From Halichondria panicea (taxonomy: Eukaryota > Porifera > Demospongiae > Suberitida > Halichondriidae), in NCBI RefSeq assembly GCF_963675165.1, contig NC_087382.1, forward strand, positions 248,001 to 312,000: a stretch of DNA of 64,000 nt. The letters are read 5' to 3'. Positions 2,810 through 50,249 of this stretch are shown here, one piece after another. Each line of letters starts with the position of its first letter. The stretch's first letter is position 1. The position numbers were made by a program, and so were the translations under genes. The notes beneath the pieces are model-generated. The model did not search any database. It worked only from the letters and a program-made list of their open reading frames with translations, and was not told the origin of the DNA.

Positions 2810-3038
2810 AATGACTATATACGTGCAGTACGGCTTTAGCTGTGACCCCAAAAAAATCTATTTCTGTATACATGTACAAATATAATTTTTTATTGTCTTG
2901 TTGTGACAGTAATGTGTGATGAAACTCTTTCTCATTGTTATAGCATAATTATTACATCACATTCCCTTTTCAAAATTAAATATTAATAATTGCTCAGATG
3001 CATCGCTAGCTTCTAACATATATATTGATAGTTAAATA

Positions 3039-4054
3039 TCAGTCGGAGTTAATCACTAGATCTAGATCTCCAGAATTCTTTTGATGATATTTTCTAAAGC
3101 AGCTGTGTACTATTATAGTTATCACAAAATGAATTGCAAACAAAACGCCACCAATGATAAATGAAAGGAGCGGAATGTCCATTCTTTGTTTCAACTCGAT
3201 AATTATTGAGTCTATAGTTGGCACTTGTACTGCTGGGGCATTGATTGCTATCAACATCAAGCAGTATACAATAATCAATTGCACTGAAATCAAATGATTG
3301 TGTGAAATCAACAGTGAAAGCATTTCATTTGTTGTCGGTGGAGTCCTAAGTGTGTACGTCTGTCGAATAGCTGACACATTGTACGTTATTGATTTCAGAA
3401 TGAAAAAATTCCTAAATAATTGATCGGAGCAGAAAGCATAGTATTCAGAATTGTTAACTCTATAAACAGGTAGTGTCTCTCCACGTAGCCCTCGCTGACA
3501 TGTGTATGTTGCCCTGGGGGGCTGCTCACAATCTCCAAAGACAAGGTCGCAGTTGGTAGTCGTAGATTCAACATACCACACATCAATAAACTCTTTCATC
3601 AAATCGTTATGTGCACCTAAAGTGATGTTGAAGGTTGAGCCTTCTAGTAGATAGAACGGTGATGCTAGGAGATTAGTCATATCGAACTCTTGAGTCACCG
3701 TAGGCAACGTTCGACAAGTTTGATTGGTCAATACATACAGACCAGCAGTACAGGGCGATACTTGTTGCTGTCCTACTGTAGTGAGACGAAAGGAGGCAGA
3801 CGATATCCAAAATGGATCAATACCCAAGTCAACCTCGGCCATTAGAGCGTCCCTTCGTCCTGTTATCATAAGGGGGAGACTCGTTCTTGTCTGAGGTACT
3901 TGAGAGAGCACAACGGCAACAATAATTCCCAGAACTAGCCAGATCAACGAAGCGGAATATGCGACAACCCATCGCCAGTTCATCTTCAACACTGTCAATG
4001 CCCTGCTGCTTTTAGAGGATGGGGATACTTTTGGAGGCTGAGGAGCTGTGTGTG

Positions 4055-4099
<45 letters not shown>

Positions 4100-4542
4100 A
4101 TATGTGCGTGCGTGTGTGTGTGTACAGGGGAATAGTTGACGTTCAGTGTTGATAAGGTAATGCAAACCATAAATTATCTAATTTAGTATATACTGTACAT
4201 ATGTATTATGCTCAACGTTTCTAAATGTTCACGAAAACCCCTATAGAATTTAGCATTGACCTTTTGATGAACACTGGCATAGCACGTATTACTTACAATA
4301 CAGTTTATGTGATGCACATTGTTGCCCTATAGCCCCGTCCCCACACCTTCCTGTCCTTGTTAATGTCGCAACGACTGACTTATTTCATATGGCATACGTG
4401 GTTATAATTTCTGCTACTTTAATATGCATGAGGACCAGAACTAAACTTCTTAGCGTATAGTGGTTAGAAAGCTGACCTGTTGGTTGACTTGAGTCGACAG
4501 GAGGTGGTAGTGCTGCTTCATTTAGTGCTGCTCCACATGTGC
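3039..4542 (-). CDS. Module membrane protein copy D, lacking the CARD-like exon
   Basis: Two exons are seen: 4477-4542 (66 nt) and 3039-4045 (1007 nt), joined in phase 1; the acceptor of the second is the end of a CA repeat. The long exon encodes a hydrophobic segment (WVVAYSASLIWLVLG), an ectodomain with sequons such as NQT, NIT and NNS, and a second hydrophobic segment (LLSFIIGGVLFAIHFVITI). It is nearly identical to the copy at 21817, but I found no CARD-like first exon upstream, only repeats. A 1-bp loss and a 4-bp gain, relative to that copy, put about 40 residues before the second membrane segment into another frame. It is either a truncated receptor or a decaying duplicate. Confidence 0.6.
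4049..4122. repeat. (TG)n microsatellite
   Basis: TG repeat with scattered CG units. Read on the minus strand it is the CA-rich tract leading into the splice acceptor of the membrane-protein exon at 4045. Confidence 0.85.
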
Positions 4543-4559
4543 CTGTGAACAATGGAGCA

Positions 4560-6900
4560 ATAACTAGTTTAATAATAAAAGCAGTCTTATCGTAGCTGCT
4601 ATATTATACACTGGCAGTTGTCATGACATCAGGTGGATGTTATTGTATACATTATGTACAGTGTGATAAAACATGTATACCGTATTACTAGAATTTTTTG
4701 CGAGCATCAAACATAATAATGCGAATTTTATCAATAAATTGCAAAACCTAATAAATTAATGAAAGCATTGTGGGTGCTGATGCCTCGGTGGAGGTGCCAA
4801 AGCTACATAACATAAAGCTACTAATAGCTAGCTTTTATACACACATTGATTCTAATTAACATGATGAACATTTTTAATTTTTCCAGTATTAAATTTGGAC
4901 GTCACTCCATGTCAGTTGTTGGGGGGAATGTGTTGCTGCTTGAAAGAGAGCTCAGTAGACAGGTCTGCAGTTCCAGTTTGGACTTGAAACAGAATGACAT
5001 TGTTGGTCATGCTCCTAAAGTACTCACATTTCAATCAGGACTGCTGTGACTATTAGCTAGTGTGCATGCACAGTTTAGATTCAGTCTGCTGCAGTTCACC
5101 ATTCAGTCTCTCACTCACTGTCATGTGACAATAGTCCCACTTGCATCAGTTTCCAACATTAATTTGTGTGGTAGTTAATCTGTTCCCAAAGACTATGGCT
5201 ACATGTATACTGATTCAGTTCATCATATTTGTGTATTTGAAGTCATTATTGTCTCATTAAACACATTTGGGGTACCGTAACCTAACCTCCCAATAAAGGA
5301 AACCTCCGAATAGCAGACAAAATCCCCTGCACCAACTTGTCCGTTATTCGGAGGTTCCACTATATATAGTGTTTTGGAAAAGTTGTTTCTACCACAAGAT
5401 AGACAAAATATATGTGTAAAACAATTAGACATTAGCTGATAAGTTTATTTGAAGTCGCTAAAGGCACCCTAAAACAGAGTACGAAACAGCGTGTGTACTT
5501 ATGTAAACGAGTGTTGCAAGCGTGTGCTTGCTAATGCCTCTCGCCATGTTATGCTTTCGCTCAACAAGTATTAGTGTTATAGTATAGTTACTATAATGAA
5601 TTTTACATTTAAAGTTAGCTTATCTATAATTATAAACTCACTGAGAAGAAAAGACTTATTTACATGCATATATTGTTGCTATCTATTGTATTATGTGGCT
5701 TACCAGGACCTTAAGAAAGAAGAAAATTGAGGATCTGGAGTTCAGTGTATATAATATCTATTGAGACTTGTGTACATGCATATTATTGTTATTGTTATCT
5801 ATATTGTTATAATAATGGTAGTGTTTTGTGGCTTACCAGGCCCTCAAGAAAAGGATGATTCTGCCAGGAGGATCTGGATTCTGGATCTGGGATATTATTT
5901 TCTCACACGTGGGGATGAGCGCGCATTACATACACAGGAATAATTAAAGGGTGTGTCCAAAGAGATCAATAATTATTTCTGGCTACTAATGCTAGCTGTT
6001 TTAAGAAAGAAGCTTTAGTTTGCTAATCCACGAATCAAAATCCAAGAGAACGTGGCTAGAAGCCTATATATAGAAGCTGTTAGTTTCGTCGCATTGCAAC
6101 CGTTGAGCTGTTACAGCTGGAACAGACACACAGACACACACACAGAGTCAGCTTTACCGTATCCCTCGTGCAGCTACGCCTCGAGGCATAACTATGTCAA
6201 TCCATGCATAATGTTAGGTAAACTATCCACTGAGCCGATAGTAAACAAGTGACTAGTAAACAAGTGACTAGCATCAAACAGTTCGTTATGGGCACCAAAG
6301 TCTCAATAGCATGCGTTTCAACCCGTGTTATAGCATCTTTATTACAGCCTCTAGGTATACATGTGTAAAATATCAAAACTTCTTTGTGAGAAAGAGAGAT
6401 GTATTATCACTACGAGCAACAAGCAAAATCTTTACCGACAAGTCTTCTAAACAACCACGATAGATATGTCTCAGATGCACACGACTCTAAATTGTAAAGG
6501 TAAAAACTTTTAGACACTCAAACTTACTACAGTCTATTTGCGTTGAGTTCGGCCTCGGAACTTACGTAGTCAATTATGGCCTTAACATGGTTGACAAGTC
6601 TGAGTCATGGAAAATGCTAACTTTTAGCTGGTTAGAACTTATCAACTATACAGCATATATAAAAGCGCAAGGAATCCAATGGTATATGAAACTTCGAATT
6701 TCAGTGAAGTATGACAAAGTTACGACAACTTTATGAAGGTCGAACTCAACACAAATAGAAAGACACCTACATTTACATACATGTCGTAACTTTAGGTAAA
6801 GAGCGTCTATACAGAAAGCGATTAACATGAACATACAATTATAACATACACTGAATTGTTAGAAGCATGCTTGCTATATTTCTACGTGAAACACACACAT
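4560..6900. repeat. Gene-free stretch filled with dispersed repeats
   Basis: No supported coding exon. It holds a piece of the ACCGTATTACTAGAAT family (from about 4678), a GAGGTTCCACTATAT element (about 5270-5370) and a segment at about 5500-6215 resembling 51360-52330 (shared AATGCCTCTCGCCATG, GTGTGTCCAAAGAGATCAAT and CGAGGCATAAC). The missing CARD-like exon of copy D would be expected near 5.8 kb but is not there. Past 6300 I see only repeat-derived text such as GGGCACCAAAGTCTC. Confidence 0.5.
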
Positions 6901-10281: not shown

Positions 10282-12068
10282 TCATCTAATATAGTTAATA
10301 GTATTGTTCTTTTGACGTCTACACAGTCGCTTTTGACGGATATGTACAATTACAGTGATCAATAAATGGAAGATAGCCAATATCAAAGCAATCAGTATCG
10401 GAATGCACAGAATATCCATTCTCCGATGAACTTCAATTTTCAGTGGTAGTTCGTTGAATTCATCATCTCCACCACATGAGTTGATGTGCAAAAAAATTGA
10501 CAGTTCTTCTTTGTGAAAGTCAAACCACTTGTACATGTTCAAATTGACTGTTTTTTCTGTTCGTGACATTTCCATTCGTTGTCTACTCCTCTCTTGTATA
10601 GCAGTCAGATCATATGTTACCAAATTCAAAGTCTCAGTGTTTGTGAATCTTTTAGTCGCAGGGTTCACACAAAACGTATAGTAGTCCGATACATTCACAG
10701 TATACAGTGAAGTAGCTTCTCCCGATTTTGTTTTTTCACATATCTTATTATCATCCTGAGGATCAGAACAATTCCACACGTACTGATCTGGACAATTTCT
10801 AGGCTCCGATTTTATGAACCAGAACTCGACAGGAATACTCAAATTGTTAGTGACACTGTAGTTTGAACCCTGAGCCAAGTAGAAAGGTGGAAAATTAAGC
10901 CTGTGCGTTATTGTAGTACTAGTAGGTGCATCTTCACGTGATATATTTGCTAAATACAATGTGGAGCTTCCTCTAGTACTCTCCATTGTAAAAGTAGCTG
11001 AAGAGAGCCAGAACGGATCGATGCCAAGGTCGATAGCTAGCATAACATCTTGTTGGCTACATACAACACTCAACGGACTGCTACTTGTTTGTTTAGGGAC
11101 ACTGTTAAGAACAATGATGACCGTGATCGAACCAAGTAGAAGCCAGATCAAAGCTGATGCATGGATGATAATCCACTTTCCCCTTTCTTTCATTTTTCTC
11201 TTGTTTAGATTTGTTCGTCCTAAGTAAAAATCCAGTGCACATTTAAATTTACTTAATAGACAAAATTAATACCGTCGCGATATTAATGCAAATGGTAATT
11301 ACAATAAACATCACATACCAAACGTGTTTCTCAGTTTATGGTAATCATAGTCTTTTTGAGAGTATCCATTTCCAACCATCGAAGATGCTCCCTCTCTGAT
11401 CGATGTGATCGTTAGGACTGAACTGACAGACTCTTTGTGGAACATGGCACCAATTTCTATACAACAATGTACAATAATTATAATTACTTATTGTTTGAGA
11501 CAATGATCAGTGTATCTGTCGTACAAGCAGTAGAGTCTACTGTAATAATACACTGCATGAAAAGATGCACCTACCACAACACATAAACATTAAACTACAC
11601 CAATTGAAATGGTCCCTATAATGAACATACGAACTTACGTGGATCATAAATTGTTTTCTTGCTGATCTCTTCTGTTAGCGACACTTGACGAGTGAGCATG
11701 TCTTTGTACTCACTCTCTAGCAAATCTGCCAGCTCATTGTGAGCATCACCAGCGTCAGCTGCACTGCTCCTTAGACACCAGATAAACTTGAGGAGATAGT
11801 CGTCATGGCCACACATGGGTACCGCTGTGACAAGAAGATCTATCTTCTGGTAATCAAAACATTTCGGGTCAGTGTATTTCTTTCCAGCTCTATCAGAGAT
11901 CAATGACTCTTGCATTAGATAGGGGAAGATTGCAACATTCAGTTTAAAAGCAATGGCTTTTCTGTTCTTTTTCCAAATGAAATTGGAAACCTGTTTCTGA
12001 TGGCTCGTTGAATCTGTAGAATTGAAATAGTCTTGGGTAATATTATATAGAATAATCTCACCATCCAT
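10282..12068 (-). CDS. Module membrane protein A: CARD-like domain, TM, ectodomain, TM (501 aa)
   Basis: Three exons, 11639-12068, 11319-11456 and 10282-11219, joined in phase 1 both times, total 1506 nt. Residues about 34-125 have the spacing of a CARD death-fold domain (LISDRAGKKY, KIDLLVTAVP, YLLKFIWCLR, ELADLLES). A linker follows to about 198, then TM1 about 205-228 (ASALIWLLLGSITVIIVL), an ectodomain with sequons NIS, NYS, NLS, NCS and NVS, TM2 about 458-481 and a basic tail. Sequons between the membrane segments imply both ends are cytosolic. The start ATG is 393 bp from the ATG of the divergent small gene at 12462. CARD domains usually assemble signalling complexes, so a receptor or adaptor role is plausible but inferred. 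The ectodomain family is unknown to me. Confidence 0.7.
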
Positions 12069-12461
12069 AGTCAGATCCTTGAGATATGAAGTTCACTAGA
12101 TCTTATGACAAATTAGATCTAGCTAAAGTGCTACAGAATTCATCTATATAGCTATTGCATTTGCCAGTAGAGATCTGTCAGGTACTATGGTAGTATATAC
12201 CATTTATGCCAAGTTATGGGTTGTAAGCATCACATGTCTAGCACTCCTGCATAATGTGGTTGAGCTGGGGAAACTTTGTAACTGTGTAGGGCTTCCTATA
12301 GCTACTCTCAGGGGATTCTCTCCTATAACCAGTGAGACTGGCTGTCTAGCCAAAACCGGTATAAAATAGAATGGATTAAGCTCTAGGAGCAGAATACTTT
12401 ATTAGTAGAGACTATCTGAGTACAGATTCAAGTTATTGTCTGTATCCAATACTGAAAAATC

Positions 12462-13498
12462 ATGGGAACAAGGTATCCTGCATACATTGATGTGGAGTCG
12501 ACTTTAAACCTCTCTCCCTGTAATGTAAGTACTTAGCAAAAATCTAACTACCTGGTATGTAGAAAATGGCCAATTAAGTCATATTCCACATCACATGATT
12601 ATTGTATTGTATACTGATCCCATTAGATATTTAATGAGATTACCAAGACAGAGTTTCCTGTAGATCTACATGAAGTTGTCAGTAAACAAGTGACTAGCAT
12701 CAAACAGTTCGTCAATGGACAAAGTGAAGATAAAACACTTGATGCATATGTAACAGTGAAATTGTACAATATCAACTCTACAAATGACCGGTCAAACGTT
12801 GAACGCTATGTAACTATTGTCCAACAAGCTGTGCAAAAAGTGGTCAATTGCAAGTAAGTATATACCTCAGTTGTATTAATTGGTGTGAAATGATAGCTAT
12901 AATTTTTTTAATTTTATAGCTAAGTTATAAAGCTGTGATCGCATGTATATACCATAACTATAGCTATAAAATTATAGCTGTCATCGCAAATAATTCAATC
13001 CAACTCAATCACTATATATATAGCTTACACAACTCCCTTTGTAAAATGTGGGCGGCATCAGTGATATAGAGCTCCCCCATGCATGCAGAGCATTTTTTTA
13101 TTTTGGTCAATTGGCCACGTCACAAGTGTATAATTATATTTGCTATATACACCAAGACAGTCACTAAAAGAGTTTGCACGCATTAATTGCTATAATTTTT
13201 TATGTCACTATTATTGCATAGTAAAATTAATACATGTTTAGCCCTATGCTATTCAAAAATCCAATACAGACAGATTTTTTATAGTATAGTTGGCAGTGCT
13301 ATAAATTCATTTCCATTTTTCTGCAGCGTGGTGGTGAAGCCAATATACAATAAAGATTCGGATGCAAATGCACTGGATGCTGAGGCTGGTGGTTGTGCTA
13401 AGGCTAACGAATTCTTTATCAGCTTCACGGAAGATGTTGTTCCTTCTTTTACACATGTTCCCCAATATAATATTGATTACCCTCATCCCCAACAATAA
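12462..13498 (+). CDS. Small module protein copy 2, complete (153 aa)
   Basis: Three exons, 12462-12524, 12627-12853 and 13327-13498, with phase 0 and phase 2 introns; total 462 nt. It begins MGTRYPAYIDVESTLNL and contains VSKQVTSIKQF, AYVTVKLYNINS and NVVVKPIYNKDS, ending in HPQQ. No signal peptide or membrane segment, so probably cytosolic. The GTAAGT donors and TTTTTCTGCAG acceptor are strong. Same exon structure as 63-2809 and 19902-21514, and phases shared with 25337-26407. It is transcribed away from membrane protein A and probably shares its promoter. Function unknown. Confidence 0.7.
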
Positions 13499-13539
13499 TA
13501 AAATTACTACACGCATGCATGCAGTACAGCTTTAGTCTT

Positions 13540-14425
13540 GACCCAAAATCTGCATGCAAATCAGACTGAGTATGTTTTTATCATTTTGTTGTGACAGTAA
13601 TGCGTGCCGGTGTGATTGATTCAACATTTTCTTTTGTGAAAGTTTACAATGTCAGTAATAAATAAACAGTAGAACATTTTGTAATAATTGCTCAGATATA
13701 TATATAGCTAAAGCTTAAAGACGCCCTTAATTGTTACAATACATGCATGTATACTGCTGCTATATAGGAGTATAATTATAGTCTGAGAGTATATAGTCTG
13801 AAAAATCACATTTTTATCACATTTTTATCCCACTAGTTTAGTATAGCCTCGATCCCAGGCCGCACTTCCCACTAGGGAAGTGGTCAAAGGCCAGTGAAGG
13901 AGGCTACTAGTTTAGAGGATGGGGATACTTCTGCGGACTGTGAATGTGTGTACTGTGTACACAGGGAAATAGTCAACATTTTTGCATGGTTTTTAGCTAA
14001 CATATAACCCCGTTCTTGCCATGCCTACTATCGTCCACATCATCTAGATTAAAGGGTAATTATATTAGCCTCCTTTGCAGGCTCTCCTTTTTCTGTTCTT
14101 CTTGTTACAGTTCTGCTATAAAATCTATATATATATACACACATGTGGTAGAAGGTAAAAAATAACTTGTCTACCAACGGTGTTTATCCATCATATAGCG
14201 GGTTATTTTCAAGGCACTAAATATTCAAGGATTTTAGTTTCGAGGATATAGAAGTTCACTCTGGTTCAATACCGAATGTAAACCAATTTTCGAGGCAAGG
14301 CAAGGTAACAAGATGATAAGACGCCCTTGTTCTATTAGTACCAAGAGTTAGTACATATATAAAAAATTATCAAACCAATAATACATTGTATATACATGTA
14401 GTATTATTATCACACAAACTAATAA
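13540..14425. other. No gene seen; repeat pieces
   Basis: Intergenic stretch between the small gene and the dead membrane gene. It contains an inverted-element copy near 13850-13910 (CCTCGATCCCAGGCCGCACT, also near 860 and 46440) and AT-rich sequence. No exon with supported splice sites. Confidence 0.5.
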
Positions 14426-16264
14426 CTAGTTAATAGCATGGTTCTTTTGGAGTCTACACAGTCGTTTTTGACGAATATGTGCAATTACATCAATTGATAA
14501 ATGGAAGATAGCCAATATCAAAGCAATCAGTATCGGAATGCATATAGAATATCTTTTCTCCGATGAACTTCAATTTTCAGTGGTAGTTCGTTGCAGTAAG
14601 CATCAGTGTGCAGAAAAATGGACATGTCTTCTTTGTGAAAGTCAAACCACTTGGACATGTTCAAATTGACAGTTTTTTCTGCTGATGACATTTCCACTCG
14701 CTGTATACTCCTCTCCTGTATTGCAGTAAGATTATATTTTACCAAGTTTAAGACCTGACGGATTGAGTTTATTACATTAGCAGGGTTCACACAAAACGTA
14801 TAGTAGTCTGATACATTCACAGTATACAGTGAAGTAGCTTCTCTCGATTTTGTTTTTTCACATATCTTGTTATCATCGAGAGGATCAGAACAATTCCACT
14901 TTTCCACATTGTTGCAATTTCTAGGCTCTGATTTTATAAACCAGAACTCAATAGAACTAGTAAATTGGTTAGTGGCGCTGTAGTTCGAACCTCGAGCCAG
15001 GTAGTAAGGTGGAAACAAAGTTTCGGCATCGTCGATTGTCTCAGTAGGTGTGTCTTCGCGTGATACATTTGCTACATACAATGTGGAGCTTCCTGTAAAT
15101 GTGAAAGTAGCTAAAGAGAGCCAGAATGGATCAATACCAAGGTCGATAGCTATAACGGGTGATACACATTGAATAATCAACGGACTGATACTCGTTTGTT
15201 TAGGGACGTTGTTCAACACAATAACGACAATCAAACCAAGTAGAAGCCAGACCAAAGCTGATGCATGGATCAAAATCCACTTTCCTCTTTCTTCAATTTT
15301 TCCCTTGTCTAGTTTTGAGTATAGAAGTATAGTAATAGTAAAATACTAGTATGCATATTAATGCAATAGACTGAATGATAATAATGATTTACATACCACT
15401 TCTCAGTTTATGGTAATCATAGTGTCGGCTTTGAGAGTATCCATTTCCAACATATCTCCCTCTCTGATTGATGTGATCGTTATGACTGAACTGACAGACT
15501 CTTTGTGGAACATGGCACCAATTTCTAAACAACAATACATAATTATAATTATAATTATAATTATGTGCTAGACAATGATCGGTGTGTATCTGTCGTATAC
15601 CAGGAGCAAATTACAGAAGGAGCGTCTTACGTTGGGAATCACATCTCGTGCAAGTTTGCGAAGCATGACCTTATATGCAAAACCGCTAAGTGGGTGATAA
15701 TTATTTGCGGGCGAGTGCTAATTGAGCTGACGGTGCATTTTTACCAACGCGTAAATCAATAAGTAAAAAGCTACAGCTAGCTAGCTTTAGCTATAGGCCT
15801 GGTAGTAAGCTCTCTCTTCTAAGAACCTCAGTAAGACTCCCTACTGCAAAAACAAAACGCAGTAAGTGCTAGTCTATCTCAGTAATTCGATATAATCCTC
15901 TTCCAGAATTTTCTGTATATACCTCACCAATGACAGTCTATAGCTCTTCCATGATGTATATACCAACATCCATCAAAGACCTATCTATTCATTTTAAATT
16001 AGCTCTTTCTGGCTCACCTGTTGCAATACATACAAAATTTGTTCATAATGATATTCACAGGCTGACCGCCGGTCTGAATAATTATGTACCCAGTACTTAC
16101 ACACTTTTCTTATAAGGCAATGCGGCGTTTAGAAAAACACACGAGATGTGGTTCCCACACCTATGTAGAGTTAGACGCTCCTTCTCTGTAATCCTGCGTA
16201 TACATGCTGTAGCTAGACTACATGTACTTAAAAGATGCACCTATCACAACACACAAACATTAAA

Positions 16265-16671
16265 CAGGGCGGATCCATGCAGGACTTTTGGAAAGGGGGG
16301 GGCAATTAAAGAAACATTTTTATACTAAAAAAAAAAAGTTCAACTATTTTTTAAAGCCCAATCAGTGTAGCTTTTCTGGTCATGGGTTGATTGATGACTA
16401 TATATCAACAATATGACATACATACTAGCAAGAGATTGCAGAAACCATCCAGAAACCATCTTGCTCTTCAGCTTCAAAAGTCTACAACTAGATCGTCCGC
16501 TATTCTGCATGCATGCAATAATTGATTGTGCTCTAAGCCACATTCACTTCGTTCAGAAAATGAGCTAGAGTACACAGATCTTATTTGAGCTAATCTACAG
16601 CGATCATTGGTATTCTAGCAAGAAAGGGGGGGGGCACATGCCCCTTGTGCCATGCGCTGGATCCGCCACTG
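16265..16671. mobile_element. Non-autonomous hAT-like element
   Basis: Ends CAGGGCGGATCCATG and TGGATCCGCCACTG. The same intron of paralogue A reads straight through this point (ACATTAAACTACACCAATTG near 11590), giving an empty site; TTAAA is duplicated on both sides. About 407 bp, no coding capacity. Confidence 0.75.
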
Positions 16672-17117
16672 TTAAATACACCAATTGAAATGATGAATAT
16701 ATGAACTTACGTGGATCATAAATTGTTTTCTTGCTGATCTCTTCTGTTAGCGACACTTGACGAGTGAGCATGTCTTTGTACTCACTCTCTAGCAAATCTG
16801 CCAGCTCATTGTGAGCATCACCAGCGTCAGCTGCACTGCTCCTTAGACACCAGATAAACTTGACGAGATAGTCGTCATGGCCACACATTGGTACCGCTGT
16901 GACAAGAAGATCTATCTACTGGTAATCGAAACATTTCGGATCAGTGTATTTCTTTCCAGCTCTATCAGAAATCAATGACTCTTGCATTAGATAGGGGAAG
17001 ATTGCAACATTCATTTTGAAAGCAATAGTCTTTCTGTTCTTTTTCCAAATGAAATTTGAAACCTGTTTCTGATGGCTCTTTGAATCTGCAGAAAATTATT
17101 GATAAAAATTAGCCGTA

Positions 17118-19438
17118 CCGGTGTCATAGGATAGAACCTCCGGGCGACAGTTTCTCCCCCGGAGCCTGCGGTCTTAGGACAATGCCTCCCCCCCCCCGGT
17201 GGTTTCGTCCTAGGACAGAATCCCCGCCCCCAGGATATATCATCCGGGTACATGTACCCTGTCAAAACCTGTCAAGGCTATAGTATAAGCGTGCGAGTGC
17301 ATGAGAAATGTATAGACTGTTAGCAATCAGAATGGCTACTCAACAAGACTGCTGCCAGCAATGCTGGCCAGAAGAAATACAGAGACGGGCTTTCCACTAA
17401 TGACAAGAGAAGTATAAGAGACAAAGTTCAAAGATATGCTCTGCAGCAACAATGCTTATACCTGCCTGAGAAGGACAGCACTGGCATGCATAGAATGAGA
17501 AGAGTTGTGGTGAAGCAAGAGGAGAAAAGCAGGATACTAAACATGTGCCACGATGGACTGGATGGAATGCATTTTGGGAGAGACAAGACCTATGGAAAGG
17601 TATATTTATCATCATATCTTATAAAGTATAATTATATCTGTTTCATGCATGCATGTAGGTTGCTCAGGATTTCTACTGGAAAGGCCTACATGCTGACGTC
17701 ATACAGCTCTGCAAGCACTGCGACAAATGCCAACGAACGAATCACCAACTGCAGAAGCCCAGAGCAGAACTACATCCCATCCCTGTGACAAAGGTCTGGT
17801 ACAGAGTTGGTATTGACTTAGTAGGACCTCTACCTGAAACAAGCTCTGGAAACAAGTACATTATCACGCTCTCAGACTATTTCTAAGTGGCCTGAGGCTG
17901 CCCCACTCCCATCAAAATCAGTAGAAGGTGTAGCAAAATTTCTGTTTGACACATTTTGCAGGCATGGGTGGCCAAAAGTGATTCAATCAGACCAAGGAAG
18001 AGAGTTTGTCAACGAAATCAACACCCGACTTTTTCAGTTGACTGACATACAGCACTGCGTATCAAGTGCTTACCACCCACAAACAAATGGCCTTGATGAA
18101 CGCTTCAACCAGACTCTAGTGAACACTCTCAAGAAGGTAATTGATTCTAGTACTGATGACTGGGATCAGCATCTCTCTGCTGCTCTTTATGCCTGTCGCA
18201 TATCAAAACAGGTAAAATTTTAATTATTATATCATGCATGCTTTTATTTTTTGATTGTAGGCGTCATCAAAGTACACACCCTTTTTCTTAATGTTCAATC
18301 GCCACCCGCGGAAAGCTGTTACTTTTGATATGGATCAACGAGATGGTGCCGACGCTATAGAAGATAGAGGAGATGCTGACCAATTGAGTGGAGAGGAGAC
18401 TGAAAATGAAGAAGACGGAGAAGACATGGATGGAATTCTCCGAAGGTTGATGGAAATTCGTGATCGCTGTCACCTCAATGCCAAGGAGAACATTGCTGCT
18501 GCACAGCAAAAACAGAAGCAGCAGTATGACAACAAGCATAACTCTTTGAAGGTATTATTTTATATAGCAAACTTTAGCTTAATTTTTGCCATTTTTGTCG
18601 TAGAGTTATCCAGTTGGCAGCAGTGTCATGCTAAAGAATATGGCCAATTCTCATCGAATGGGAGGGAAAATGGACTGCACCTGGAAAGGTCCATATAACG
18701 CTTTCCCCAAGTACTGAGCTCCAGATAGCACAAGTGTATAGCCCATTAATTCAATGCAATGGGCTGTTGATTTCGATTCTGTGGTGGCTCTCCAGCAGCA
18801 AGAGGGTGCTAACAACTGCGGACTATTTAGCATTGCTGCTGCAATCACGCTGCTATGAACGATAATGTGGATTCTCTAGTGTTTGATGAGGCCAAAATGA
18901 GAGCACATCTCATTAAGTGCTTTGAGAAGGGCAAACTCTCACGGTTCCCTCGCACAAAGAAAGCGATGCCCAAAAGACCAACACCACAAACCATTGCCAT
19001 TACAATATACTGCATGTGCAAGAGACTGGACTCTTTTGAGGATATGGTCATGTGTGACAAATTTAGTGAGTAGTATCACTATCGCTGTGCCAAAATTCGC
19101 AATGAACCAGTAGGTAATTGGTTTTGTTCTGGTTGTATCACTTTATGATTTGTGCACTTTTGATTGTACTTCTTTCTCTTGCATTGTTGTATTTATTGAG
19201 TATTGAGATCTATAACATTAAGATACAGAATCTATTGCATCTAGTCTATGGCTGTTTACTTCGTAGCCAGATTACCTGTGGACTGACTTTCACCTGCACC
19301 GCAGAATGGGGGAGCTCTGGTCCTGGGGTAGGAGCTTTTGTCCTAGGACAGAAACTCCGGGGGGAGGAAATATCCTAAGGACGGAACCCCCCCCCCCGGA
19401 GCTACTGCCCTGGGGGAGGCCGTGTCCTGTGACACCGG
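17118..19438. mobile_element. Ginger1 DNA transposon with CCGG target-site duplication
   Basis: CCGG at 17118-17121 and 19435-19438 flanks a 2313-bp element with ends TGTCATAGGA and TCCTGTGACA. Its long GC-rich imperfect terminal repeats share blocks such as GTCCTAGGACAGAA. Inside is a Gypsy-like integrase gene followed by Ulp1 and PHD-like remains. CCGG duplications, TGT...ACA ends and integrase plus Ulp1 are the published hallmarks of Ginger1. The flanks join into the CARD-like exon of copy B, matching intact paralogue A. Confidence 0.9.
17335..19147 (+). pseudogene. Ginger1 transposase (integrase-Ulp1-PHD), broken
   Basis: Four exon blocks with GT-AG introns at 17600-17658, 18212-18260 and 18552-18603. 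Order: an HHCC zinc-binding segment (CHDGLDGMHFGRDKTYGK then CKHCDKC); a DDE core with GIDLVGPLPE, IQSDQGREF and YHPQTNGLDERFNQ; an acidic insert; and a GPY-type end (WKGPYNAF). Next comes only the C-terminal part of a Ulp1/C48 protease (EGANNCGLFSIAAA with its Cys; the His region is missing), then a PHD-like finger (YCMC...MCD...YHYRC...WFCSGC). Lesions: a 2-bp loss after LSDYF, a frame change after AAITLL, a stop at the expected Trp before YHYRC, and loss of the first half of Ulp1. Not functional. Confidence 0.85.
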
Positions 19439-20652
19439 CGTACGTATTGGTAGAGTAATCTCACCATCCATAGCTAGATCTAGCCAGCTCCTTGAGATGA
19501 TAATTATGAGGAAATATAGACCTTCAGACCTAATTACAGTGCTACAGAAGTCATTTTACAGTAAGCAGTAGATCTAGTACTGTACGTCTAGTCTCTAGCT
19601 AGCTCTAGCTATAGTTAATTACCATTTAGGCCTAGATCTAGTACCATTTATGGTAATAGCATCACATGTCTATGAATGTGCATGGCAAGAGTGCTTGATG
19701 TGGTTGATTAATTGAGGTGACTACGTATAGACTGCAGGGGATTTTTTAAACTCCAGTGATACCTATATAAAACAATTGTGACTGCATGCATGTCTATAGC
19801 TGAAGTTTTAGACCTACAGAGCAGAACACTTAAAGTATCTGAGTACAGATATCTATCCAGGATCTAGGACTGTGTACAGATATCTATCCAGGACTGAAAG
19901 ATGTCTTCCGGGCAACAGTTTCATGTATATGCATTGATGTGGAGTCGACCTTAAGCTGCATCAGTCCCCAAGCCATACACAGCAACATGGTAAATAAATT
20001 ACTTAGACTAGTATTGTACATGCATGTAAATGCCATTAATTGTATACTGATCCATTTAGGTCTTCACAGGTACAGATGTTTCATCTAAATGGTTTCTTGC
20101 AGAAATTGTCAGTAAACAAGTAACTAAAATCAAACACTTCTGCGAAAAGGACAACGAAGAGGACATACTCTGTGCATATATAACAGTGACATTTACTATG
20201 ATTAATAGTTTAAGCAAGCCATTCGCCAAAACATATGTACAAATTGTCGAAAAAGCTGCGCTAGAAGTGGTTGCAGGACAGGGCAAGTAAGTATATCACA
20301 TACCCTCAGTTGTATTTGGTGTGAAACTTCGTAGCCGGGATCAAGTTATCTAGTTTTTCAGATAGCCACTTTATTTAAGATGCAACTAGTTTTTGGTAAC
20401 ATTATTATATATATAGCTGCCATCGCAAATACATGTAGTTTGATCTATTAAACTCCTATAACTCACTCCCACAATTCGATCCCTTTTTCATGCTTTTTGT
20501 GACAGATATCCATGAGCTACTATAGGATATAATTCTACCATTTTAGCACATCAGTAATAGAGCTCCCCCAGAGTATTTTTGATCGATTGGCCACATAACA
20601 AGTGTATGCTACACCAAGACAGTTCCAGAGTCGCATTGCTATATATGTCACT

Positions 20653-21160
20653 ATAGTCTCATGAATCAGCCGCTCTTCCTAGGGGAGAGACCTTCTGAGT
20701 ACTTCAGTCTGAAGCAGAGGAGGTACGACAGGCGCGGTGCAGCTCAGGCAATTAGCCTTTGATTGAGCAATATTTATCCGCCCACGTCGTAATGTTTTTA
20801 CTGAAGGCTAATTACTTGTGTCTGTCGGACCTCCTCTGAGTCTGAAGGTCATTGCACAATGGAATGTTAATTGTCATTACGTCAGTGTCATAAACCAGAA
20901 GAATGCAAGGTCAACCACGAACACTTGACTAGCAGCTATGAATTTGTTTGGCTTGCTCCAAGAAGGTTGCTAAAAAAAGTGTTGTACAGGCCTATAGTGC
21001 AGTCAACTATAGCTCCTTGACTGACTATATAACTATAGCCATAGAGTTATCATGCACTAGCTATAAATGCGTCCCCATAGAATGCATTATTTTCTTGTCA
21101 ACTCAAAGTGCTCAGACAGTCTCTACCCTATAAGAAGGGCGGCTGATTCATAAGTCTATA
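20653..21160. repeat. MITE, AGTCTCATGAATCAGCCG family
   Basis: Inverted termini TATAGTCTCATGAATCAGCC and its near complement about 500 bp apart. Minimal copies of the same family lie at 39930-39992 and 41609-41685. Confidence 0.7.
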
Positions 21161-21315
21161 TAATATAATATGTCACTATTTATTGCCTTGTATACATATA
21201 CAAAGTTCAGCATGACAGCTAGACTAGCTTTGTTACCTCATGCAAGCTATTCTATAATTCAGGACTGGTTGACAGTGCTATAAAGTCGCTTTCATTTTTC
21301 TGCAGGGTGGTGGTG

Positions 21316-21381
21316 AAGCCAATCTAGTTGGGCGGAGTCCAACCAACGCTTCGCTCACTCCGCCCAACTAAAGCCAATCTA
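21316..21381. repeat. Palindromic insertion with 11-bp duplication
   Basis: AAGCCAATCTA occurs at 21316-21326 and 21371-21381. The intervening 44 bp is an inverted repeat (AGTTGGGCGGAGT...ACTCCGCCCAACT). It lies in the last exon of a small module gene and creates its stop. Confidence 0.85.
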
Positions 21382-21816
21382 CAATAAAGCAACACCGTGT
21401 CCTTGTTGTGAGAATTGTACTAAGACTAAAGGCCTCATCATCAGCTTCATGGGAGCTTTTGCTCCTTCTTTTGCCCGATATAATATTATTGCTTACCCCC
21501 AACAACAATACTGAATTACTACATGCAGCTGCAGTACGGCTCTATATAGCCTTAACTCCCAAAATCTGTATGCATGTCTACATGTAGCTGTTAAAGGAAA
21601 TCTGAAACTTACCACAAGATCGTTCTTTGTATCGTCTTGTTGTGATAGCATAAATTGTGTGATGCAACCTTTTCTCATTGTTATAATTTATACACATTAA
21701 CACTTCACCCTTACAATGTATATACAAAATTAATGAACAACGGAACATGAAATAATAATTGTTCAGATGCATCGCTATAGCTTAATATAATATTGACAAG
21801 TATTGATAAGTTAAAT

Positions 21817-24483
21817 TTAATTAATCATTAGATCTCCAGAATTCTTTCGATGACATTTTCTAAAGCAGCTGTGTACTATTATAGTTATCACAAAATGAAT
21901 TGCAAACAAAATGCCACCAATGATAAATGAAAGGAGCGGAATGTCCATTCTTTGTTTCAACTCGATATTGAGTCTATAGCTGGCACTTGTACTGCTGGGG
22001 CATTGATTCCTATCAACATCAAGCAGTATACAATAATCAATTGCACTGAAATCAAATGATTGTGAGAAATCAACAGTGAAAGCATTTTCATTTGTTGTCA
22101 GTGGAGTCCTAGGTGTGTACATCTGTCGAATAGCTGACACATTATACGTAATTGATTTCAGAATGAAAGAATTCCTAAATAATTGATCGGAGCAGAAAGC
22201 ATAGTACTCAGAATTGTTAACTCTATAAACAGGTAGTGTCTCTCCACGTAGCCCTCGCTGACATGTGTATGTTGCCCTGGGGGGTTGCTCACAATCTCCA
22301 AAGACACGGTCGCAGTTGGTAGTCGTAGATTCAACATACCACACATCAATAAACTCTTTCACCGAATCGTTATGTGCACCTAAAGTGATGTTGAAGGTTG
22401 AGCCTTCCAGTAGATAGAACGGTGAAGCTAGGAGATTATTCATATCGAACTCTTGGGTCACCATAGGCAACGTTTGACAAGTTTGATTGGTCAATACATA
22501 CAGACCAGCAGTACAGGGCGATACTTGTTGCTGTCCTACTGTAGTGAGACGAAAGGAGGCAGACGATATCCAAAATGGATCAATACCCAAGTCAACCTCG
22601 GCCATTAGAGCGTCCCTTCGTCCTGTTATCATAACGGGGAGACTCGTTCTTGTCTGAGGTACTTGAGAGAGCACAACGGCAACAATAATTCCCAGAACTA
22701 GCCAGATCAACGAAGCGGAATATGCGACAACCCATCGCCAGTTCATCTTCAACGCCGTCAATGCCCTGCTGCTTTTAGAGGGTAGGGATACTTCTGGAGG
22801 CTGAGAAGCTGTGTGTGTGTGTGCTGTGTGTGTGTACAGGGGAATAGCTGACGTTTAGTGTTGATAAGGTAATGCAAACCATAATATCAATTTAGTATAG
22901 CATTAGTACATACCTATATATGTATAATTATGCTCAACGTTCACAAAAATCCCTTGCATTGACCTTTTGATGAACACTGGTATAGCACGTATTACTTACA
23001 ATACAGTTTATGTGATGCACATTGTTGCCCTATAGCCTCGTCCCCACACCTTCCTCTCCTTGTTAATGTCACAACGACTGACTTATTTCATATGGCGTAC
23101 GTGGTTATAATTTCTGCTACTTTAATATGAGGACCAGAACTAAACTTCTTAGCGTATAGTGGTTAGAAAGCTGACCTGTTGGTTGACTTGAGTTGACAGG
23201 AGGTGGTAGTGCTGCTCCATTTAGTGCTGCTCCACATGTGCCTGTGAACAATGGAGCAATAACTAGTTTAATAATAAAAGCAGTCTTATCGTAGCTGCTA
23301 TATTATACACTAGCAGTTGTCATGACATCAGGTGGATGTTATTGTATACATTATTTACAGTGTGATAAACATGTATACCGTATTACTAGAATTTTTGCGA
23401 GCATCAAACATAATAATGCGAACTTTATCAATAAAATCGCAAAACCTAATTAATGAAAGCACCGCGGGTCCTCGGTGGAGGTGCCAAAGTTACATAACAT
23501 AAAGCTACTAATAGCTAGCTTTTATACACACATTGATTATAATTATCATTTTTAATTTTCCTGCATGCAGAATCCAGGTAATGATTGACGATGATTGTTG
23601 TTAAAAATGATCGATGCCAAAAGTTCAAGTCTAAAATTAATGGCTGAGCAGAGCCTTGCAGCTACCAATAGCTAGCGTTCTAGTATAGAGCTATCTACTA
23701 AGTAGAGTAGCAACACTCGGTGAACAAGTTTTACTACGGACTCCTCTGAAAAGGCTCCAATGGCATTCCAAGTGAGCAAAACTAGGCATAACTTGAGAAC
23801 GAAGCTTTATTTTGCAAATCCACAAATACGAATCCAAGAAAACATGACTAGAAGCCTATAGAAACTCTTACTTGCACTTCATTGATCCTTGAGCAGCTGT
23901 AACAGTCTACACACACACACACATGCACACACACAAACACACTACCATACACCTCGCTTGCGCATGCGCACCGAGGCATAATTATTATTACTAAATACAC
24001 AGTATCCTTGCCAAAACGCAATAGCAAAGGGTCAACTTTTTGATCTGCTGATTTGGCTCATTCGCAAAGGTTTTCACCTGCAAAATATTCTGTATGAGAA
24101 TTGATTTTACAGCTCTTACGTGTTGTGCTATCATTTTTCATTTCCTTTTTCGTTTCCTCATAATCACCCTCGAGCAGTTTAACCAAGTCTTCATGAGCTT
24201 TTCCAGCCTCTTTATAAGTATTCTTCAGGCACTCAATGAACCTCAATAAATAATCGTATTGCTCACACTTCGGGATAGAGTCAATAATACGGTTTCTCTT
24301 GTCAACTTCAGTTTGTAAATCTACGTAAGCTTCTTGTGCGTCTTGGGGAACTATTTTAGCTTGCACTAAAAAATCAAAAGCCACTCTGATGCTAAGATTT
24401 TTTCGGATGCTTTCCTTGTTCTTTCTCCACACAGTGTCTGAGATCAACTTCTCTCGACTTTTTCCTATAAAGTAAGCCAGCAT
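21817..24483 (-). CDS. Module membrane protein C: CARD-like domain, TM, ectodomain, TM (473 aa)
   Basis: Exons 24120-24483, 23176-23241 and 21817-22808, both introns phase 1, total 1422 nt. The first exon has a CARD-like pattern at residues about 26-108 (FDFLVQAKIV, RNRIIDSIPKC, YLLRFIECLKN, EDLVKLLEGD). The short second exon is a Pro/Ala linker. The third encodes TM1 (WVVAYSASLIWLVLGIIVAV), an ectodomain with VDLGIDPFWISSASF, several Cys and sequons (NQT, NIT, NNS, NVS), TM2 (LLSFIIGGILFAIHFVITI) and a short basic tail. The third acceptor is the end of a CA repeat and the second donor is GTCAGC, weaker than GTAAGT. Divergent from the small gene at 25337. Nearly identical to copy D in exons 2 and 3. 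Receptor-like role inferred. Confidence 0.7.
23690..24000. repeat. Dispersed short element with internal CA repeat
   Basis: Contains AGGCATAACTTGAGAACGAAGC, a CTTGAGCAGCTGTAACAG block, a CA repeat and the GCGCATGCGCACCGAGGCAT end seen also near 6010-6200, 36880-37540, 52050-52330 and 54920-55200. It lies in the first intron of copy C. Confidence 0.6.
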
Positions 24484-25336
24484 GAAATAATTGACTAATT
24501 TATACTATAGAAAAACGCTAATTAATCAATTACAACAGAACCTGAAAGAAGCGAGTGGAGTAATTATATATATAGCATAATTATTATTATGAGCTATTTA
24601 ACGCACCTTGTGACTCAGCCATTAACATTAACAGGATCGTGGGAGAGATGACTGAATAAACTAACTTCAGGGCAGCCCTGACACGTACTTGTGGAAACAA
24701 AGAAGCATGAAAAGTGAACACACTTATATGGTCGTCACGAAATCTATTATCACTATCAGGTGATTGTGACCACGTGCATTTGTTAAAGTTATATTGCATG
24801 GCATACAGGATTTTCTTATATAGGTCTGGATGTTTAGTGTGTAGCTACTTCAGTTCATTGCATGACTGGTAATAATTCATGGTGCTCCAGATCTGAATGT
24901 TGACATGCATGCATGGTAGATAGGTAATTATGGCCTTAAGTAATTAATTAAGTACAGATTTTATTTCTCACCTCTCACCAAGGCTGGTAGATCTAGATCG
25001 ATCTATGAGATCTAGTTTAAAAAGTTCTGCAGTGGCCTATTAAACAGTAGCATAATTATAGTCTAGTCAGCTAGTCCTGTTCTGTTCATTTCCTGCACAA
25101 ACTCCTCCTATATCATCCTAGATCTAGATTGAGAAAGGGGTGGGGCTGCTCTAGCTTGCATAGCTCATGGGAATTACTTTTAAATTTCTTCCCCTTTTAG
25201 TGTGTGTTCATTGTTCAAGCTTTCAGAAAGGATAAGCATATACTGACCCCACATCCTAGCTATAGCTAGCAAACTACATTAGTGGTTAAAGCAGCACATC
25301 TGCATGATAATTATCTACAATAGATAGTTCTTGAAG

Positions 25337-26407
25337 ATGGGTGACTATCCCTTGCAGATTATCATTGATGGAACCCCACCTCTCGACGCAAACACTCTGA
25401 AGAAAGCAGTGATCAGAGTAAGTCATCTTTCTAGAAGGTTTTCCATATAAGGTCATGCTTGCAAAACTTAAGACGATACCCAATCCCCGACGTTTTGTAT
25501 ACACAGTACTTATTCTGTAATCTGCTCCTGTTATTATACACATACAGTTGACTGTACATACATGCTTGCTCTATAGTACAGTGAAACCATAATAATAATT
25601 ATTGTTACTTTGCTCTGATTATAGAAATTGGGCTCTTCAGGAAGTTTTAGCTCCAATACGTTTCCCATTCGAAACCTTGCCTACCAGACTATTAGTGGCA
25701 ACCTGACATGCTCGGGAGATTCAAATACAAACAAGCCATGTTTGAATGTAACTGTCACTATCTTCAACGTTGGAAGTCTTGACGTACCAGAGATTGTGAA
25801 AGAAGCTTTGCACTTAATACAGAGGGGTCTAGAATCTTGTATACCTGATTATGCGTAAGTTTATAATTATAGCCCTTCAATTCAGGTAAATTATTTTTAT
25901 GGGTGCTAATTTCTGCGAATTGTGCGAATATAATTATAAGAGTAAAATCGCAAAATTTGTACTTGCAGATAATGGAAAATGCAATGATAACACCATAAAA
26001 AATTTATCATGCGAGTTAATTAAAAACGCTATGAATAACATTAATTTCACAACTAAATCGCAGACAAATAATGTCACCATAAGGTATTATAGCTTATGGT
26101 GATAATATATCTATAAATACACATAATGTATTCTATAGTCAAATAAAACTACGTATACATTGTGTATGATAATAAGTATCATCGCAAATGGCTGTAAATT
26201 CCATTCATGGCCGGTGATATAATATAGTATTGCTACGTCTACAGGGTAATTGTGAACCCAAAGTTTGATCCAAGCTATGCGGCGCTAACAATACTACGAA
26301 AAATCGAGGAGATCAAACTTGAAAACTTTGAGAAAGTGAAAGAGGAGCTATATCGAGAGTTAGGAGTGCCTGCTGGTGGATCTTTGCAGCTCAAATCAAA
26401 GCTATGA
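25337..26407 (+). CDS. Divergent paralogue of the small module protein (157 aa)
   Basis: Exons 25337-25417, 25625-25854 and 26245-26407, phases 0 and 2 as in the gene at 12462; total 474 nt. Starts MGDYPLQIIIDGTPP. The middle exon has LNVTVTIFNVGS followed by a predicted helix (VPEIVKEALHLIQRGLES), matching in position AYVTVKLYNINS and its following helix in copy 2. The last exon starts AVIVNPKFD where copy 2 has NVVVKPIYN, then a charged helix (ALTILRKIEEIKLENFEKV). Shared intron phases support common descent despite low identity. No signal peptide or membrane segment. It lies 853 bp head to head from membrane gene C. Function unknown. Confidence 0.65.
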
Positions 26408-26956: not shown

Positions 26957-33888
<6,932 letters not shown>

Positions 33889-47852: not shown

Positions 47853-50244
47853 TCAAACAATAACGTCATAAACAACTTCATAGTCTCTAATTGATTCATA
47901 TTCTCCATCCGAATTTGAATCATTTGGTTGAATAGCTTGTCCGTACGAGGGATTAGATTGAGTGGTTCCTCCATACGAGGGATTAGGTTGAGTGGCTCCT
48001 CCATACGAGGGATTAGGTTGAGTGGCTCCTCCATACGAGGGATTAGGTTGCACCATATGCACTTCCTTGAGCTCAATCTCCATATTCCTCACACGCTTCT
48101 TGTAATACACACAGGCAATGCAGATGACAACACTTATGACAGCTATTGCAGCAATCACTACAGCCACAACAGATACAGTCACTCCCACTATCAGTTCATT
48201 TGCAATCCCATCAGTAGTTTGAACAAGTGCATCTCCTCTGGCTAGAATGAACACCTCCTGCACGGGGATCTGATCTGTTATGTTCGTCTCTGATGTTACA
48301 AACACTGTGTACGTAGTATCTGGAGTTAGTCCTGTGCATGTGTGAGGGGGGGGAGAGGTGATACTATTATGCTTGCATGATGATAATTATTGTATAGACG
48401 GAATTATTGGCTAGTTGTGTGCATGACTTGTTCAGTAGCTGCTTACCCTCAATCAGTCCCATGGTGGTGGTGACAGTACTAGATAGTGTGATGCTTGTCT
48501 CCCCAGCAACACTAAACCAGAGGTTATATCGTAGCTCATCTCTCCCCCTACCACCAGTGGACACTGGCTCCTCCCAGGCTAGTGTTAGTGTGGTACTGGA
48601 CATATCCACCACCCTCACGTTGAGTGGAGGGGACGGGGGAACTGCGTGGGTGTGTGTATTGACATAGTGAATGACACAACAATAGATGCATCAAATTGAT
48701 GTACAATAGCACACATAGCATAAGTAACGTCTCTTTGTAATCCATTCCCCAATGCAAGCAGCTGTTCACATAAGCATGCATGCACAGTGTATGCAACAGT
48801 AGCCCAACTATGCTGTATGAGGCAAAAACAGTAAGCAAAATCACAATGGGTCAGTTATTCATGATCAGCTGTTTAGATTATCACTAGTTTACCCAAAATA
48901 TCATCACTCACGTGTGCAGGGAAGGTCCACCTCTTGTGGTGTTCTGTAGTAGCCATCATCACAGGGACACTCTGCCAGACCTGAGGCTGTGCTGTTGCTG
49001 TTGCTAGGACATGTTAGACACTCCCCATTAGCAACACTGGCATAGAACCCAGGGTCGCAAGCTGTGTGTGGGGGGGGGGGGGGTCACATTCATTCAACCT
49101 AACAGGAGGAATCATGACAGCTAACTATAAATTCAGTATGCCATGTGATAGTCAGGCCATGCATCCCTTGCATAACATGCACCCAAACTTGCTATTGAAT
49201 GTAGTACTATCGCATTGTAAACTGTTATTATTAAGCATATACAATGGTGTGTCCCAAACTGAAATATGTAGTCATACTTACACAAACAGTTTTCTCCGTC
49301 CATGGTGGTAACAAACCCAGTGTCACACTCACACCTGCTGGAGGGTACAGCAACCCAGTTACCACTCTCCAAACACATGAGTGAGAAAGCATCACCTACT
49401 GGGCTGGAGTTAGCGAAGCAGGAGGCATTAACGTTGAGTTGTATGCCAGACCCCACTGTTGGAGCTATTGTCTCAGGGCGCACCACCAAGTTGACTGTTT
49501 CACTAGGGCAAGTGTTATAGAAGACAATCAGTCGAGATATGTGTATACAAGTGCCAGGATCTCTAATAGCGAGGTAGAACCCAGTCTCATTGGTATTGAA
49601 TCCAAACTGTTCAGTGGTTGTTGTGATAGCTCCTGAGACCTGAGTTGTTAAGGTTTGTATAAGTGCATAATTACCAGTGTCTATAGCAGCCACTGGATTC
49701 ACTGTAGAGGTCTCATATTTCAGTAGGTCAAATGTTCTCCTGCATCTTGTGCTGCCATCATCAGGGCATATGCTCTGCTGGTATTCAATCTGTACAGAGA
49801 CTTGCTGTAGGGGATATCCATTCACTGTTCTGTTGATGTGCTGTGTGAAGAGCCAGTTGTTCTGGGCCCCACCTGACCAGCCGCAAACAGTGACAGCAGA
49901 CTCACAGCTAGGTCCTTGTTCTGTCCACTGAAAAAGAACAAAAAGAGTTCAAGTCCCTTTGCATATCCATAACATTAATTACTTACAGATGATTGCAGCC
50001 CAACAGGGTTGTTACCATCAAGGTCCACTGTCTGCCACACTGGATTAGAGTTTGGTGGGAGCAACCTGCTATAGTGACTGGAGTCCATTAGAATCCTCCC
50101 ATTAGGAGGGTCCTCCACAACGTTCTGTCCAAAGGCAGGTATAGATACTGTACATAATTCTTGTTCATCTCCTGGAGCCTGTCCAGCCACCATTGTCAGT
50201 ACACCCAGCAGCAGGAGGTTGGTTATAGCTATCATCTTAGACAT
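47853..50244 (-). CDS. Kinase-less Eph-receptor-like protein with NPxY repeats and ITAM-like tail (575 aa)
   Basis: Exons 49987-50244, 49282-49927, 48912-49061, 48447-48641 and 47853-48331, phases 0,1,1,1, total 1728 nt. Signal peptide 1-21 (MSKMIAITNLLLLGVLTMVAG). Ephrin-receptor ligand-binding domain to about residue 205 (GRILMDSS, QNNWLFTQHINR, TGFYLAIRDPGTCIHISRL), then a Cys-rich Eph/GCC2-GCC3-like segment to about 350, one FN3 domain (about 353-450, LTPDTTYTVFV) and TM about 463-492. The 83-residue tail has four decapeptide repeats with NPSY at 513-516, 523-526, 533-536 and 543-546, then YESI (561-564) and YDVI (571-574) six residues apart. No kinase, SAM or PDZ-binding end: a TGA follows 574-VAL within the exon. 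Any ephrin ligand is inferred. Confidence 0.85.
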
Positions 50245-50249
50245 CTTTA

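Follow-up and report, generated by a model that had tools for sequence, protein, structure and literature searches.

A tandem array of divergent gene pairs for a CARD-like two-pass membrane protein and a small partner in the sponge Halichondria panicea

We analysed a stretch of 64,000 nucleotides (the window) of contig NC_087382.1 in the RefSeq assembly GCF_963675165.1 of the sponge Halichondria panicea, a genome of 131,455,214 bases in 39 contigs. The window corresponds to positions C6:248001-312000, where C6 denotes this contig. The original prediction described an array of head-to-head gene pairs in this stretch, in each of which a minus-strand gene (here M) codes for a CARD-like domain followed by a transmembrane (TM) segment, an ectodomain and a second TM segment, and a plus-strand gene (P) for a small partner protein. 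Genome searches and tblastn over C6:150001-312000 showed that the array is real and larger than first noted, since it reaches beyond the window to about eight tandem units, A to H. Both families cluster in C6:220.9-274.4 kb, about 54 kb, with the M genes on the minus strand and the P genes on the plus strand; units A-D and the start of the P gene called P_0 lie to the left of the window, and units F, G and H are its pairs 1, 2 and 3. The features are listed below, with plain numbers giving positions in the window and the prefix C6 those on the contig.

C6:220942-222727, minus, and C6:223122, plus: unit A, M and P, identified by tblastn and open on both sides
C6:226546-227472, minus, and C6:227777, plus: unit B, M exon 3 with further degraded M sequence and no CARD exon found, and an intact P
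C6:229-233.7 kb, minus: unit C, degraded pieces of M, identified by tblastn
C6:241599 to ~243426, minus, then C6:245784 and C6:247873, plus: unit D, M with open exons, followed by P_D, with a stop in exon 2, and by P_0
63..2809, plus: tail of P_0, exon 2 at 63-289 and open terminal exon at 2638-2809; first exon at C6:247873-247938, left of the window
3056..4546, minus: M_E (unit E), linker exon ~4546-4475 and TM-ectodomain-TM exon ~4004-3063; no CARD exon found
6195..6293, plus: P_E (unit E), what is left of exon 2 of a P gene, at the head side of M_E; supported by tblastn (E 0.005) and a 40-base repeat copy
10282..12068, minus: M_F (M1, pair 1), CARD exon 12068-11639, linker 11456-11319, TM-ectodomain-TM 11219-10282; phases 1,1; open, 501 aa
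12069..12461: divergent intergenic region of pair 1, 393 bp, two AGATCTAG-type sites
12462..13498, plus: P_F (P1, pair 1), exons 12462-12524, 12627-12853 and 13327-13498; open, 153 aa
14430..19471, minus: M_G (pair 2), dead; keeps a start remnant at 19471, a CARD exon interrupted by a TAG (~17095-16694) and a TM-ectodomain exon (~15345-14430) whose frame shifts near TM2
17118..19438, strand not assigned: DNA transposon carrying rve integrase and zinc-binding segments, with inverted ends CCGGTGTCA... (located by reading the sequence) and flanked on each side by a CGTA direct repeat
19902..21510, plus: P_G (pair 2), dead; exon 1 frameshifted with a stop, exon 2 still alignable, stop in exon 3
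21817..24622, minus: M_H (M3, pair 3), in the model starting at 24483: exon 24483-24120, linker 23241-23176, TM-ectodomain-TM 22808-21817; phases 1,1; 473 aa
24622-24607, minus: candidate first exon of M_H, with a phase-1 donor that would join the CARD exon at 24464; read from the sequence
24623..25336: divergent intergenic region of pair 3, 714 bp (853 bp if the start is 24483), three non-overlapping AGATCTAG-type sites
25337..26407, plus: P_H (P3, pair 3), exons 25337-25417, 25625-25854 and 26245-26407; open, 157 aa

By sequence, both genes are open in units A, F and H and both are dead in G, and B and D have decayed on one side. The head-to-head start codons predicted at 12068/12462 and 24483/25337 belong to genes that are open and splice-consistent. 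Both introns are in phase 1 in the two fully spliced M genes (F and H). The fixed intron phases and the length of about 155 aa expected of P also held, with phases 0 and then 2 in P_F and P_H, and P_A, P_B and P_0 splice alike. In unit D the CARD exon seems to come after a short first exon with a phase-1 donor, and similar signals are present in F, G and H; with a layout as in unit D, position 24483 may fall in an intron and not be the true start of M_H. A tiny intron may come after the start codon of pair 1, or the sequence there may be read through. Identities between units F and H are 31% for M exon 3, 32% for the CARD exon and 21% for P. P_H is 21-23% identical to the other P proteins, and its alignment with them scores 32.3 in hhalign (probability 56.4), compared with a maximum of 24.0 among 300 shuffles. 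Judged by their sequences, the F and H units are old relatives.

Pair 2, at 19471/19902, consists of head-to-head remnants and is not a working pair, given the TAG, the frameshift and the stops. The transposon separates the start remnant at 19471 from the CARD exon of M_G and, by comparison with unit D, probably lies in the first intron; its Pfam matches to Integrase_H2C2 and rve are both just under the cut-offs, and the element resembles the Ginger type. A half-module predicted at 63-4542 turned out to be two unpaired halves, the tail of P_0 and M_E. P_0 has a second copy of its terminal exon near 2081-2258, which ends the protein early if read on from exon 2 in frame, and the ectodomain of M_E is frame-shifted over 3180-3330 relative to M_H and back in frame before TM2. 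Unit C may hold a P remnant as well, since the block C6:236203-237485 matches the block that starts at the P_E remnant.

In genome-wide searches, for which the counts are lower bounds in the case of large families, no clear match to M or P was found outside the cluster. The TM-ectodomain frame of M1 gave 16 matches at E ≤0.01, some of which are separate pieces of the same copy; every one lies on the minus strand within C6:220,942-270,752. Two CARD-exon queries placed 6 of 7 and 9 of 10 matches (E ≤1) in the cluster, and the respective outliers, at C39:9203 (E 0.226) and C9:2517204 (E 0.338), lie in tandem-CARD frames. The matches to P1 (14) and P3 (3) at E ≤5 were all in the cluster, on the plus strand.

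The CARD-like nature of the N-terminal domain is supported by profile comparison, by an AlphaFold2 model and by structure matches. The M_H domain was modelled as a six-helix CARD fold with a predicted local distance difference test score (pLDDT) of 89, and the structural matches were nearly all CARD entries, with MDA5/MAVS and Apaf-1 among the best neighbours. With hhalign, the M domain reached 83.7% against a set of four CARD domains and 57.2% against the two of them named by Pfam, in each case with none of 200 shuffles as high, and only 5.3% against the two left unnamed by Pfam, with 2 of 200 shuffles as high. The Pfam CARD model PF00619 matched neither the M exons nor the spliced M1 and M3 at E up to 10, and the C6 cluster was not among the 56 places found when the genome was scanned with it. 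Sequence searches of the PDB with the CARD, P and TM-ectodomain alignments gave nothing at E <0.19. The genome also encodes tandem-CARD-like proteins at C39:7703-11038 (L033) and C9:2515704-2518913 (L042); in both, the second CARD is the only one to which Pfam gives a name, and L042 has weak TPR matches.

The TM-ectodomain-TM layout was likewise recovered, with two hydrophobic spans each in M1 and M3 and none in P1 and P3. The ectodomain of about 223 residues carries sequons and cysteines and is followed, after the second span, by a short basic tail of 15 residues in M1 and 12 in M3, with no C-terminal RING. AlphaFold2 modelled it as all-beta between two helices, at a poor pLDDT of 57.2. In hhalign the ectodomain scored 25.9 against APD1-4, above the maximum of 23.4 for 300 shuffles, at a probability of only 7.9% (4.7 in the other direction). 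In a ranking of 82 open reading frames (ORFs), which favours long ORFs, it stood with the APD1-4 copies of this genome in both directions; M_H, M_E and the C17 copy L067 were not prominent. The Pfam models APD1-4_N and APD1-4_M matched no M protein and, in genome scans, no place in the C6 cluster. The ectodomain thus weakly resembles APD1-4 in sequence, perhaps reflecting an APD-like ancestry. The labels DUF725, WD40_WDHD1, STICHEL and CNOT11 suggested by Pfam for M or P were rejected, as their scores are under the cut-offs, and a search of viral and prokaryote-genome collections with M exon 3, the one query used there, gave no relatives. The APD1-4 genes themselves form arrays at C8:5481731-5610812 and C17:1898537-1916044 (L055-L067), with 14 APD1-4_N matches (9 over the cut-off) and 13 APD1-4_M matches (12 over the cut-off). 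They are two-pass membrane genes with no CARD in the exons read; the C8 copies read have mostly glycine-rich N-termini, and two of them, about 51.7 kb apart, encode identical proteins.

P has no hydrophobic span, no Pfam match over the cut-off and no PDB match of weight, and is probably cytosolic. The order of its predicted elements, judged by eye, suggests a ferredoxin-like alpha/beta fold. Among the P genes of F, B and 0, the lengths of the exon indels are always divisible by three, which is not so for the introns; comparisons with P_A show a single 1-base gap in exon 3 (A/B), near the shifted C-terminus of P_A. Substitutions in P are about equally frequent at the three codon positions, and in a simple simulation a gene of this length remained free of stops with a probability of 0.065 after 100 random substitutions.

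To quantify rates of change, we calculated ratios of nonsynonymous to synonymous substitutions (dN/dS) by counting changes between related copies, two at a time. These pairs are not independent of one another, three of the copies (G, B and E) are broken, and the stop codon of M_G was excluded. For the CARD exon the ratios were 0.12 (F-A), 0.16 (F-D), 0.09 (F-G), 0.04 (D-G) and 0.12 (A-D), with F-H and D-H saturated. For the ectodomain they were 0.59 (F-D), 0.55 (F-B), 0.59 (F-G), 0.56 (D-B), 0.59 (D-G), 0.49 (B-G) and 0.44 (H-E, over 184 ectodomain codons), with F-H saturated and a single synonymous change over 223 codons between M_A and M_F. TM1 gave 0.39 (F-D), 0.43 (F-B), 0.48 (F-G), 0.38 (D-B), 0.62 (D-G) and 0.51 (B-G), no change in F-A and H-E, and saturation in F-H. 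TM2 plus tail gave 1.15 (F-B), 0.57 (D-B) and 0.64 (F-H), with two nonsynonymous and zero synonymous changes in F-D, none in F-A, and 5 codons only in pairs with G. Ratios for P were 0.64 (F-A), 1.14 (F-B), 0.83 (F-0) and 0.95 (B-0), or 1.67, 1.04, 0.91 and 0.73 for exons 1 and 2 alone, with F-H saturated. In these counts the CARD appears conserved, and the other parts of M, and P most of all, are changing.

Our preferred reading is that the array consists of two-gene modules in which a membrane CARD signaller and a fast-evolving, probably cytosolic partner share a divergent promoter region; we give it a probability of about 0.4. M would be anchored in the membrane with an N-terminal cytosolic CARD, a linker, TM1, the ectodomain, TM2 and the basic tail. 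The ectodomain would sense a ligand on the surface or in the lumen, of microbial or of self origin, and clustering would gather the CARDs, which would then nucleate a CARD assembly that takes in further CARD proteins encoded by the genome. P would be produced in concert with M and would act on the cytosolic side as an inhibitor, a licence or a decoy. The contrast in rates fits recognition under a changing ligand, and the locus may serve immunity or self-recognition in a lineage-specific way. A related proposal, which appears rather unlikely to us, is that of a two-gene recognition locus in an early-branching animal, where an APD-like two-pass receptor signals through its CARD and the fast cytosolic partner from the same promoter region sets threshold or specificity. 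On that view, a conserved CARD, a more rapidly changing membrane region and ectodomain, and a partner that changes fastest would be the mark left by a shifting ligand or by discrimination of self from non-self.

Several observations weaken the case for co-function of M and P. Unit A (C6:218257-224478) and unit F (C6:255652-261821) are 95.4% identical over 6,277 columns in one block that includes both genes, and since this duplication of 6.3 kb copied the whole module, the repeated orientation is what tandem duplication would produce. The divergent layout proposed originally holds, but we rejected its repeats as independent evidence, and the argument from them for co-function is weaker than first put. 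Similarly, G is indeed dead on both sides, as had been noted in support of co-function, but this is offset by the decay of one side in B, where an intact P_B adjoins an M without a CARD exon found, and in D, where an open M_D adjoins a dead P_D, which argues against a strict dependence of M and P on one another. As to the rates, relaxed constraint is possible, and since TM1 keeps pace with the ectodomain they give no pointer to ligand contact. The start codons of a pair are separated by 394 bp in A, 393 bp in F, 430 bp in G and 714 bp in H, and the promoter comparison took 431 bp for D; the F, A and D regions share words with H no more than shuffles do, and the G region exceeds shuffles through AGATCTAG-type words. 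Non-overlapping sites of this type in the 162 kb of C6:150001-312000 lie in, or up to ~0.6 kb upstream of, module genes in 15 of 25 cases. The palindrome CTAGATCTAG, a word spotted by eye before counting, occurs 1559 times in the genome, about threefold the 542 of its reversed control; we therefore rejected a promoter code unique to the module, and CTAGATCTAG looks like a general element.

These same observations (the duplicated block, the half-dead units B and D, the dN/dS of 0.64-1.14 in P, the chance-level similarity of the F, A and D promoters to H and a shared word that is common in the genome) favour the alternative that M is functional and P an unrelated neighbour, co-duplicated with it in a divergent layout that was inherited from the ancestral module and has no functional meaning. 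We consider this a serious possibility, only slightly less likely than our preferred reading. Against it, the frame and splice phases of P are kept in five intact copies (A, B, F, H and 0) and across the F/H split while the introns diverge, and no clear copy of either gene was found outside the cluster. Only the comparison of the F type with the H type carries some independent weight; there the pair was kept together through deep divergence. With the evidence mixed, co-function of M and P is a plausible hypothesis.

We think it improbable that M is mainly an APD-like membrane protein, acting in trafficking or ubiquitin pathways with its CARD as a scaffold contact and not as part of an immune receptor, and that the cluster is a lineage-specific expansion of the ordinary kind, comparable to the C8 and C17 arrays. 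The existence of those arrays, the ranking of M with APD1-4 copies in both directions and an hhalign score above all 300 shuffles speak for it, but the Pfam APD1-4 models match neither the M proteins nor the C6 cluster, the hhalign probability is low in both directions, M_H, M_E and L067 are unremarkable in the rankings, and M lacks a RING. That the array is mostly a graveyard of decaying duplicates with little present function is very improbable, for although 4 of the 8 units (B, C, E and G) are without an intact M and in 4 of 8 (C, D, E and G) we found no intact P alongside, both genes are open in A, F and H and the CARD is under strong purifying selection.

Elsewhere in the window, a minus-strand gene of animal type at 47853-50304 contains Eph-receptor ligand-binding and cysteine-rich domains, with the Eph-receptor-like ectodomain at 49136-49948. 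Nearby lies a TM segment, after which come PNPSYGG repeats and tyrosine motifs, and there is no kinase in its vicinity among the listed ORFs of at least 90 aa. A minisatellite at 28259-28615 has copies spaced by 8 bases, and scans of the window for tRNA genes and with Rfam gave no matches.

Among known systems, MAVS is a CARD protein with a membrane anchor. M resembles this type in joining a CARD, with MDA5/MAVS and Apaf-1 as structural neighbours, to the membrane, but differs in having two spans around an ectodomain of ~223 residues and in being clustered with a partner gene. It shares with the APD1-4 family (PF16040/PF16041) the TM-ectodomain-TM layout and a weak co-linear similarity of ectodomain profiles, but has no Pfam match to it, carries an N-terminal CARD and lacks the C-terminal RING that is a feature of plant APD proteins, in keeping with the name of the Pfam family. 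Lineage-specific expansion recalls the NLR and SRCR immune receptor families of sponges, as far as these are covered in the texts consulted, but M and P have no Pfam match to NACHT, LRR or SRCR. The portions of the literature on sponge CARD proteins, allorecognition clusters and APD1-4 that were available to us contain no description of this arrangement, and against that background the combination of a CARD with an APD-like two-pass membrane region seems to be new. Intact, half-dead and dead copies adjoin in one cluster, so that direct tests are possible. In plants, head-to-head NLR pairs have shared promoter sequences and a documented co-dependence (PMC9528088). The array shares with pairs of the RRS1/RPS4 type the divergent clustered genes and an intergenic region of several hundred bases in common (PMC9528088), but neither M nor P is an NLR by the searches made, and the partner is small. 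If M and P act together, they would form an animal counterpart of the head-to-head paired immune genes of plants.

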